From Paramacrobiotus metropolitanus (taxonomy: Eukaryota > Tardigrada > Eutardigrada > Parachela > Macrobiotidae), in the NCBI RefSeq assembly GCF_019649055.1, contig NW_026570668.1, forward strand, positions 1 to 21,551: 21,551 bases of DNA, given 5' to 3'. Positions 15,480-19,646 of this stretch are shown here, piece after piece (the first letter of the stretch is position 1; every line of letters begins with the position of its first letter). The notes under the pieces are model-generated. The model worked only from the letters and a program-made list of their open reading frames with translations, searched no databases and was not told where the DNA came from. A program made the position numbers and the translations under genes.

Positions 15480-16630
15480 ATGGACCTTGTCACTGGAATG
15501 GACTATGTTAGTCAGGGGTTGAATATGTTTGTCAGGTAAAACGATCAGTTATATCGCTTACATACATATGTGATATTACTAGGTTCTTTGTCAAACTTCC
15601 AGGTTACTTGGACTAAGCGCCCGTACTTGCTTGAACGTACATATAGTTTATGCTTTTTAGGGAGTGCAAGGTCTTATCCTGAACGAACCTCCGAATCAGC
15701 CCAGGGCGAATGTATCTTCCACTGTTCAGCCTCGGTCTGCTGCTGCATCATCTCAACCCGCTGCTGGGAGCAGTCGCCAGAGTTACGAAGAGGAGTGGGA
15801 GCAGCTGCGGCAGCTCGAGAGGATCTCGAACGCTGGTTGGCAACAGCAGTCCAACCAGGGGCCATCTGGAATGGCCATGCAGCCGGGACCATCGATGTCA
15901 ACAGTGGTAAGAACACTACAACCATAATCACGGTGTGCGTTGGTTTCTAACGATGGCGTTATTGCAGAATTCCTTCCCCGTAGTTTGGCAGGGACAGTTA
16001 GCGCTCAAGAACGATCACGCCCTGGTTCGCATGCACATCATTTCCGGAAATCAGGAATTATCGCGACTGTCGCTTCCTGGTTTTCCTGATCCCACTCACA
16101 ATGTGCTGAAGATATCGCAGCGTATGCCCCTGGAGCAGGCCCAACTTCATCGTGTCTCCTCTCAAATGAACGTATGTTGCATTATGTGATAGTTTTTGTT
16201 TTAGCGGATTCGCTTCATCGGCTGAAATGCATCGTTTGCATTTGCTTCACAGGATACCGACGCGCACTGTGTATTAGTGGCTTGTGCCACCGGAAAGTCG
16301 GCTGCTGAACAGGCTCATGAGGGCGATATGTTACGCAATGGATTTGTGAACTATTTCACAGGAAAACAGGCAGCTGGAATTGTTAACGTTGCCCTGCACG
16401 GTCCGAATAGCCCGGTACGTAATAAAACACTCTCGAGTTCTAGTGCCAAATAGTGTAGACGATGAACATTACCTATAAGAATTTCCTTGCAGATACAATA
16501 TGTAATTCACTTCTTCCCACCGTGCGACTTTTCCAATCAAGCCTTGGCCCGCTTTGGACCCAGTGTCATGCAGGCCATACCAGAGCAGCAGCCGCATCTT
16601 TTTGTTGTCATCACTAAAAGTTGGGTGTAA
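15480..16630 (+). CDS. Short SPOC-domain protein (SPEN/Split ends-like C-terminus)
   Basis: SPOC domains end the large SPEN proteins and bind phosphorylated co-repressor partners. Exons: 15480-15535, 15661-15906, 15968-16171, 16253-16414, 16493-16630 (TAA 16628-16630); all introns are GT-AG and phase 0. Exon 2 is a low-complexity Ser/Gln/Pro stretch. Exons 3-5 encode the whole SPOC fold: VWQGQLALKND, RMHIISGN, LKISQRMPLE, the YFTGKQAAGIVN core, then IHFFPPCDF and a final hydrophobic strand (LFVVITKS). The protein is only about 268 residues and has no RRMs, whereas SPEN proteins run to thousands and Spenito/RBM15 types still have RRMs. Exon 1 is 56 nt where phase 0 needs 57: a run of four G at 15516-15519 probably lacks one G, and adding it makes the exon end EYVCQ as in the gene at 17816. 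A separate SPOC-only gene or a duplicated SPEN fragment are both possible; intact splice sites favour an expressed gene. Confidence 0.8.
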
Positions 16631-17815
16631 CTACAACCCCGGTCAACATCCTGAAAGTCGATGAAAAGTACCCGTAGTCCCGTTAATCAACCAATCAAAG
16701 CCTTCTGAGCCATTCTCGTAACGATGTTACTTAGTATTCCAAAATGGATGACTGATCCATGCCGGATGGATTATTCCACACGAATTCGAAACCGAAACAG
16801 TTTACACCCAGTGTCGAACAGTGAACGATCGCATTTGGTATATGGTTTTACGAATTTTTAAATTGTTTTCTATCCGCGAATGAAAGCGTCAGTGCGGCTG
16901 TCGGTTGGAACGCGGCAGTATTATGTGCACACAATGTGCTCCTACTGGTTAACTTTTGATTAAATACATTCATGTGTGCGTGATACTGTGTATCGCATAT
17001 TGTATATTTTTGTTACGCTTATCTGCATATTATTTACGTGAATTTTAGTATCATCTGCATTTTCGTGTCGGTTGTTCTTTGAAATATTTCTTTCTCAGTG
17101 TTTGGAGTTATCAGAGGTATTTAATAAAGGAAATACCTACCTATCCGCCGCAATGGCGTGTTTGCGGTTGTTTACGGTAATTTATAGTTTACTGACAAGA
17201 TTTTTTTCTGGCTGCAAAGAGTTAGAATTCGCAAGAACAAATACAGCCAACAGCGATTCAGAGCTCCAGTAACTGTTTTAGCTGTACCATACGAACACTC
17301 TGCTCGTACCGTATATTTTATATTGTGGTACTCGTACTGTTTTTGCAGTATTTTGTAGTTAGAGTGCTTTAATACTAGCGGTCTTACTGCTGCGGCGCTT
17401 TCAGATTCGAGGCAGTGAGACACACATTATTGTATTGCACGTGCGTGGTTTTCTGTAAGCTCCAGAAGCGCCCAGAATATGAGAAAGATGTTACGAATCA
17501 GTTTATCTTGTTAAATCCTCTTACAACGATGGGACTGACCTCTTTTGTCAGCATTTGCCAGCATCGACACAACCTGGCACACGCAACGGGACCATGAATC
17601 CGCTTAGCTCACCCTGAACGAGTGAGCTGTCGAAGGTTTATTCGGCAGAAATGGGCAGTGAGTTGGAGTAGTACTCTGTAGTATGTATCTGATTATGCTT
17701 TGAATACCGCACCATCGAATTACCAGTCGGTTGTTTTAACAATCGTCCTGATTAAAACGTTTTTACACGATTGCCACTAACTATTCACATTCCTGTCAGA
17801 CACGCATGAGCTGTA
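16631..17815 (+). other. Intergenic region between the SPOC and Groucho-like genes
   Basis: No gene is recognised. A possible ATTAAA polyadenylation signal is at 16959-16964. One copy of a dispersed repeat lies at 17526-17613. The final 100 bp before 17816 should hold the promoter of the next gene, but no motif stands out. Confidence 0.45.
17526..17613 (+). repeat. Dispersed repeat, copy A
   Basis: Shares ordered blocks with 21299-21404: ACGATG-GACTGACCTCT, TGTCAGCAT, ATCCGCTTA and TTAGCTCACC. The copies differ by small indels, so they are old. It could be a SINE, a MITE fragment or the end of a larger element; no terminal repeats or poly(A) tail were seen to decide. Confidence 0.55.
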
Positions 17816-19646
17816 ATGGACTTATTGGAATATGTCTGTCAGGTACAGTTCTGTGCAAAATTTTAGGTCAACTTTAAAGTACCCATCCCTGCTTGAATTT
17901 AGGGAGTGCAGGGTATCTTGGGCCTGGGCGGGCCTTCAAATCAGCCTGAGACTTCAAATCAGGCCGAGGCAGATGCTCAGTTTGAAGTGATCGGTAAGTG
18001 CACAACTGCAAACAATTGGAGACTGCGCACTTTCAGACTAGCAGCGAATGACCTTTGGTTGTAAAACGAAAGTTTGCAGATATGAAATTTTGGGCACTTG
18101 GCCAAGGCAAATTTAAAGACGGGACAAGAATAATTACCCGTTGTTTTCGGTCTTAAAAACGGCAGATCTCAGAAAACTTAAGAAAACCGAGAAAGCTAAG
18201 AAAACTTAATAATAACTAAGAAGTTAAGACGGATTAGAAAAAGACTAGGTCGACTTCGTGACGGACAGACAACGTGCTATCCGACCACAATGGCGGTAAA
18301 TTGGCGGGTCAGCTATTCGATTCTTTTATGATTGTAGACAGTTCAACTGTCCCAGCCCAGACGTCGCCGCAGTCCAGCACACCGCGCGAGTTACAGGAGG
18401 GGACCTCTCTCCCCATGGTGATGTGGTGTGCGCGGTGGCCATTAGCAATCCGACGCGGTACGTGTTCACCGGCGGAAAGGGCACGGTGAAAATGTGGGAC
18501 GTCTTTCCCAACGGGACGGCCAGTGCACCCACTGACTTTCGGCCACCCACATGCTACGGACTCCTTGAGTGTTTCGACCGGACTGTCTACATTCGCTCTT
18601 GTAAGCTGACGTCGGATGCATGGCAGTGCGCTGGTTGTCGGTGGGGAAACAACGAAGCTGTGCATCTGGGATTTAACCGGCGGTGGTTTTCCCGGGTAAG
18701 AAAATCAGCTGCCTTTACATACCACGCTCGCGGTTCGCATTATTTTGCAGTATGTATTAATGGAACGTGGCATTTGGTGCAGATTAAAGGTCAGCTCTTC
18801 AGTCAGGCACCGGCGTGCTACGCGCTTGCACTCTCCCAGGACGGCAAGCTGTGCTATTCATGCTGCTCGAATGGGAATATCATCGTGTGGGATCTGCACA
18901 ACCAGAAGGTCATCTTGCAGTACTGTGGACATTCCGATGGGGCCAGCTGTATTGACATTTCCAGGTAAATACAAAGACAAGAAGGGATTTCTTATCGTGA
19001 TTCGTGTAATATTTTTTTGATCAAATGGTTAACAAAATTGTGGAGCACTACAGGCCCAAGTTTTTCCCAACCTTTACTAACGCTGCAATTTTTGACAGAA
19101 ATCTTTAAATTATAATCAGCGCTCTGGACCACAGTGCAGCAGCTGCAGTAAATATTACGTCAGCAAGATAATACGAACACGATGGTTAACTTCGATTTGC
19201 ACCGGTTACAGCGATGGACTGACACTGTGGACGGGTGGTTTAGATAATACAGTCCGCTCGTGGGATATCCGCAACAACCAGCAAAAGAAGCAGCTTGATT
19301 TCCCGTCGCAGATCTTCAGTCTCGGCTGCTGCCCGACCGGCGAGTGGGTGGCGGTGGGCATGGAAAACTCCACGGTGGAAGGGTTAGCACGTCCAACCAG
19401 GATAGATACCGACTGGAGCAGCATGAATCCTGCGTGTTGGCTTTGAAGTACGCCCAGTCGGGCAACTGGTTCGTCTCCACGGGGAAGGATAGTCAGCTGA
19501 ACATCTGGACGAATCCGCAGGGATTCAATCCTTTTATGGTTAAAGAACCGGCATCGCTGCTGAGCTGCGATGTGGCCGCCGATGGTCGGTACGTGGTGAC
19601 CGGGTCGGCTGCCCGCACTGCGACACTGTACGAGGCCATATACTGA
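17816..19646 (+). CDS. Groucho/TLE-like WD40 propeller protein lacking the Q domain
   Basis: Groucho/TLE proteins are co-repressors whose C-terminal WD40 propeller binds short peptide motifs in transcription factors. Exons: 17816-17842, 17903-17993, 18338-18695, 18783-18964 and 19212-19646 (TGA). The propeller shows [85 protein letters not shown] and a final YEAIY, all Groucho hallmarks. It would be about 364 residues against 700-770 for Groucho; the Q domain and most of the usual linker are absent. The leader ([13 protein letters not shown]...) matches the SPOC gene upstream. Frame breaks: near 18414 (C run one short), near 18617-18630 (net +1 or -2), at 18691-18695 (C run one short before the donor) and near 19381 (G run one short). 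Between breaks the similarity is uninterrupted, so sequence error or recent decay fits better than old decay. Candidate AATAAA at 20196. Confidence 0.8.
17994..18337 (+). other. Intron 2 of the Groucho-like gene, AAG-rich
   Basis: A 344-bp phase 1 intron with donor GTAAGT and acceptor ATTGTAG. Between about 18170 and 18245 it contains a degenerate purine-rich repeat built from AAGAAAAC and ACTTAA-like units. No exon encoding Groucho Q, GP or SP regions was found inside it. Confidence 0.6.

Follow-up and report, generated by a model that had tools for sequence, protein, structure and literature searches.

How two unrelated co-repressor modules can come to open with the same 5′ end is the question raised by a small contig of Paramacrobiotus metropolitanus, on which a gene with a SPOC domain and a gene with a Groucho-type WD40 propeller adjoin on one strand. 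The window analysed here is the complete contig C448 (21551 bases), one of the 533 contigs of a genome of 169,799,020 bases. Searched against this genome, the SPOC body hit paralogs on C34 and C60 as well as a remote one on C42, while the WD40 body found its paralogs at two loci on C17. For the comparisons we used the short groucho-type WD40 gene at C17:692 kb (C17b, compared as L018), stretches of the spen locus on C34 (L015 and L024) and C60:331000-332093 (L016).

The rest of the contig carries other repeated material. By eye, two or three copies of C2H2 zinc finger-like stretches lie in 48-11099, and a repeated segment (2813-3207 and 7989-8383) is 86% alike, its first member matching the PRDM2 PR domain and SET. 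An open frame at 20238-21140 (280 aa) gave no Pfam match over the 278 aa scanned; the short sequence that follows it occurs at about 40 genome places among the matches listed. Together, this frame and its trailing repeat may belong to a retroelement, as its 3′ end.

A leader shared by three genes

The sequence-only reading had proposed that the SPOC and WD40 genes share their first exons, and most of its details held. Both genes open with ATGGAC, at 15480 and 17816, respectively. The first exon ends as described, with GAATATGTTTGTCAG/GTAAAA (to 15535) in the SPOC gene and GAATATGTCTGTCAG/GTACAG (to 17842) in the WD40 gene, which gives the common exon end GAATATGT[TC]TGTCAG. The proposed common intron sequence, TGCTTGAA, is found in both leader introns, and the second exons start with GVQG, at 15661 and 17903, and both contain NQP. 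The leader intron, which had been called phase 0, is so in the WD40 gene (27 nt exon 1) but not in the SPOC gene, where exon 1 has 56 nt and the intron is in phase 2. A third copy of the leader fronts C17b, where ATGGGCTTAATGGGAAATCTTTATCAG is followed by an intron and then by GGCGTGCACCGTATCC.

Alignment of the leaders was checked for chance similarity with dinucleotide shuffles. The local DNA scores were 36 for SPOC/WD40 (shuffle maximum 29), 51 for SPOC/C17b (maximum 30) and 43 for WD40/C17b (maximum 32), and in each of the three pairs 0 of 1000 shuffles reached the score. Among 519 real tiles taken from the window and the loci compared, none reached 51 or 43. When the WD40 leader served as query, no tile came up to 36 either; the SPOC leader had four that did, all at 46, which is the score of its true spen match. 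In blastn searches the SPOC leader matched L018 (15646-15729 with 3441-3524, 71%, E 7e-5), and the WD40 leader matched it in two pieces (E 8.6e-4 and 0.003). The first of these pieces, 17791-17845 with 3314-3367, includes about 25 bases upstream of the ATG, scored only within the whole match; in the reported matches such upstream sequence is shared between the two groucho copies only and does not include the SPOC gene. The leader pair was absent from a self-blastn of the window at E 1e-3. At the peptide level, the WD40 leader matched those of C17b (score 48) and SPOC (score 41) with 0 of 2000 shuffles each, while the C17b/SPOC score of 21 was not significant (reached by 312 of 2000 shuffles). 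Across the three leaders, the residues GV...L...NQ of exon 2 are invariant in the three-way alignment.

Chance similarity, to which the self-blastn, the differing exon 1 frames and the non-significant C17/SPOC peptide match might point, is scarcely credible in view of the shuffles for all three pairs, the tile comparison and a third copy that precedes another truncated groucho, and was rejected. On these alignments, the leader (exon 1, intron 1 and the start of exon 2) is of common descent in the three genes.

It is unlikely that a recent local duplication or conversion gave the SPOC gene the leader of its WD40 neighbour. The position of the two genes and their exon 2 peptides, alike in GVQG..NQP, would fit such copying, since by peptide the neighbour is the nearest copy to the SPOC leader (41 vs 21 for C17b). 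By DNA, however, the nearest copy is C17b, with a match that is longer and higher (51 vs 36) and that in the three-way alignment spans a segment where the neighbour is gapped. Moreover, the two neighbouring leaders are far from identical.

We also looked for further copies and for the source of the leader. Genome searches by DNA, protein and pattern returned the query copy alone; each missed known copies (the pattern was drawn too narrowly to hit the other two), and absence is not implied. With the C17 upstream region as the DNA query, the search hit no leaders but a repeat that lies upstream of the leader. An origin in canonical groucho or spen was rejected, as the best peptide scores (29-36) lay within the range of reversed-peptide controls (27-36; nine comparisons with L017, L015 and L024). 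Near the contig end, 21283-21340 (+) is weakly similar to 17512-17566 (score 27, against at most 22 in 500 plain shuffles) and may come from the upstream part of a further leader unit that the contig end truncates.

A sequence of up to about 265 bases occurs in the genome as inverted pairs some 29-34 kb apart on four contigs (C17:659375/691449, C111:258932/290878, C288:29701/58631 and C361:3297/37409), with one or both members being short matches on C111 and C361. This arrangement is the one expected for the two ends of a large mobile element, and the C17 leader ATG follows one of the ends at a distance of about 120 bases. Between the C17 flank at 659 kb and the window, no match below E 0.1 was obtained.

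Structure of the leader-SPOC gene

Exon 1 of the SPOC gene (15480-15535, + strand, as are the other parts of the two genes) runs for 56 nt to a CAG/GTAAAA donor in phase 2. When spliced at this GTCAG/GTAAAA site, it reads MDLVTGMDYVSQGLNMFVRECKVLS and meets a stop after 25 codons. In 15001-15640, nine ATG-to-GT paths that use a single first exon keep the frame of GVQG. Of these we take TAT/GTTAGT, after 15506, to be the most donor-like by donor consensus, and it looks weaker than GTCAG/GTAAAA. Its use would give MDLVTGMDY/GVQG, with the frame open through the SPOC domain. The leader intron (15536-15660; GT at 15536, AG at 15659-15660) has its 3′ end inside the L018 match, which continues into the leader-derived part of exon 2 (15661-15735, GVQGLILNEPPNQPRANVSSTVQP...).

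The leader family ends within exon 2. The second of the leader alignments stops at 15735 and the alignment to C34 begins at 15742, which places the junction at 15736-15741. The body behind it (15742-16630) comprises the remainder of exon 2 to 15906 and exons at 15968-16171, 16253-16414 and 16493-16630; exons 2-5 are open. Besides its identity to C34, it contains the SPOC domain that had been claimed (Pfam PF07744, 2.2e-22, hand-joined exons), and its best PDB match is the Msx2-interacting protein (SHARP; 6.5e-36). The C34 locus combines PF00076 (RRM) in two ORFs of L024, an open linker ORF of 1282 codons and a SPOC domain, and is therefore a spen gene. Over 15798-17260 the window is about 82% identical in DNA to L015 2613-4102, introns and the 3′ flank (16631-17260) included. 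Since the homology runs into the 3′ flank, the copying took place at the DNA level. The copy lacks some 620 bases of the C34 exon (L015 jumps from 1990 to 2613).

The spen homology of the SPOC gene covers the 3′ end only, from 15742. No + strand ORF of at least 80 aa begins in 14340-15539, so no RRM exon is visible there, although short exons could escape. The copy keeps the equivalents of K3516, R3552 and K3606, while R3548 is replaced by K and R3554 by P. The three retained residues belong to the phosphoserine anchor of SHARP (PMC9834408). Judged by sequence, the SPOC gene is a chimera of the leader family and a spen 3′ end with a mapped junction. This junction and the third leader on C17 support the proposal that a duplicated 5′ end was joined to two different co-repressor modules, and beyond the leader the SPOC and WD40 proteins are unrelated, as had been stated.

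The third close SPOC copy, on C60 (L016), lacks the K3516 equivalent and shows an even distribution of changes over codon positions (13/18/17); it is likely decaying.

The WD40 gene and its relatives on C17

The WD40 gene starts with exon 1 at 17816-17842 (MDLLEYVCQ, phase 0, aligned with L018 3338-3364) and exon 2 at 17903-17993, placed by sequence reading and the leader alignment (30 residues). These are followed by exon 3 (18338-18695), exon 4 (18783-18964), which is open in the conserved frame, and exon 5 (19212-19646). The claimed identity as a groucho WD40 gene was borne out by an exon-by-exon match to the two groucho-type loci on C17, but the frame is broken. Compared with the paralogs, exon 3 has one base fewer in 18405-18418, four extra in 18612-18626 and, as inferred from exon lengths and frames, one base fewer before the donor. 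By sequence reading, an acceptor ending at 18360 would skip the first of these breaks, and the next two cancel at the cost of about 24 wrong codons. The break in exon 5, near 19375-19388, is a gap of 7 against canonical groucho and of 1 against C17b, and it still removes the end of the propeller. An open frame over the propeller was thus not found in the window copy as assembled. By its exon matches, the gene is an N-terminally truncated groucho paralog.

C17b, on the other hand, is open across the 381 codons translated, a segment that ends ahead of the stop, and its best PDB match is TLE1 (2e-115). Aligned with TLE1, it retains the arginine of the TLE1 stretch YIRSCKL, presumably R534 in the chain numbering. 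In a preprint, R534 is reported to be needed for WRPW/EH1 recognition (PMC13308096). A TLE_N search of the genome gave a single Q domain match, at C17:1356881-1357189 beside canonical groucho, and none at the truncated copies; weak matches could escape this search.

The silent divergence was 0.25 for SPOC vs C34, 0.70 for WD40 vs canonical groucho and 0.76 for WD40 vs C17b. The lower value of the SPOC copy suggests that the spen copy is the younger event and that the groucho truncates are older.

Decay, function and known systems

A serious alternative, to which we give a little less than an even chance, is that the two genes of the window are relics of a leader array, decaying as pseudogenes, and that the SPOC join never yielded a useful gene. 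The frame-changing indels of the WD40 copy, the SPOC exon 1 that is out of frame at its best-looking donor and the loss of the R3554 equivalent would all fit decay. On the same contig, a FLYWCH domain gene (12062-12500) also shifts its protein-like frame, at a C run near 12313-12325. Against decay, exons 2-5 of the SPOC gene are open and three residues of the phosphoserine anchor are kept. The dN/dS was 0.27 for SPOC vs C34 (148 codons), which also speaks against decay, and 0.24 for WD40 vs canonical groucho (238 codons, in visually chosen blocks), but these pairwise values take in the parent copies and therefore do not prove constraint on the window copies. Changes on the window lineage showed a moderate third-position excess, which in being merely moderate leans towards decay: 9/4/12 by codon position for SPOC, in blocks that hold two intron codons, and 25/15/33 for WD40, in blocks running a few codons beyond the break in exon 5.

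Several of the breaks affect just one base within or next to a run of C or G and, in our judgement, resemble residual nanopore errors. The Paramacrobiotus sp. TYO assembly, similar in size to this genome, was built from nanopore and Illumina reads and polished with Pilon (170,483,395 bases, 684 scaffolds; PMC8277472). The 4-base insertion is not of this type. In the window, C/G runs of 5 and 6 are rarer, at 2.32 and 0.46 per 10 kb, than in the control loci, at 5.07 and 1.09, in sequences of different base composition.

The explanation that we consider probable is that a family of truncated groucho paralogs exists in this genome, that its leader was also joined to a spen 3′ copy, and that the products, if made, compete with Groucho and Spen. 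N-terminally truncated paralogs, consisting of leader and WD40 body with no Q domain found, would have arisen in the genome. On the window contig one leader would then have been fused within exon 2 to a spen 3′ end copied at the DNA level, while a second leader copy there still precedes a WD40 body. The predicted products would keep their peptide-binding domains and have lost the oligomerisation or RNA-binding parts: a WD40 propeller without Q would bind repressor motifs (WRPW/eh1) and form no Groucho tetramers, and a SPOC domain without RRMs would bind phosphoserine partners without RNA targeting. Because of the established roles of both domains, competition with full-length Groucho and Spen would be the simplest and likeliest function. 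Given its broken frame in the assembly, the window WD40 copy is a doubtful candidate for this role.

A more far-reaching version, which we regard as improbable, is a lineage-specific decoy kit in which one 5′ cassette, common to both genes, jointly drives a Groucho propeller lacking Q and a Spen SPOC lacking RRMs, the frame breaks being assembly errors. If true, both classes of repressor recruitment would be dampened in the same cells. The split, co-regulated kit suggested by the sequence-only reading likewise goes beyond these results. Under the preferred explanation, Groucho and Spen would have natural competitors in these products, if they are made. Since the chimera junction is mapped to within a few bases and the genome still contains both parent families, the birth of the gene should be datable and the inheritance of its promoter testable.

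Among the papers listed for tardigrade Groucho, truncated Groucho and chimeric genes we found no leader-sharing SPOC/Groucho pair, and little on Groucho in tardigrades. The WD40 domains of the window copy and C17b are clearly of the TLE type, but AES isoforms consist of the Q and GP domains alone, and the two copies are the reverse (PMC2701438). The window SPOC is of the SHARP type and keeps three residues of the phosphoserine anchor; it differs from Spen/SHARP/MINT in its homology to the 3′ end alone, its foreign leader and a P at the R3554 equivalent (PMC9834408, PMC10660550). A family in Schistosoma japonicum likewise comprises distinct genes with a similar core promoter and leader that arose via duplication; its leader, however, is a signal sequence dispersed over 18 scaffolds, whereas three copies were found here (PMC3434034). 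Tandem-duplication chimeras in Drosophila yakuba resemble the present case in their chimeric structures, shuffled regulatory elements and duplication at the DNA level. Those chimeras were tested by RNA-seq in a population sample, whereas here two co-repressor tails with one leader are known from sequence alone (PMC5460883). The capture of a 5′ end is a known process, and the leader-SPOC gene belongs to that kind.
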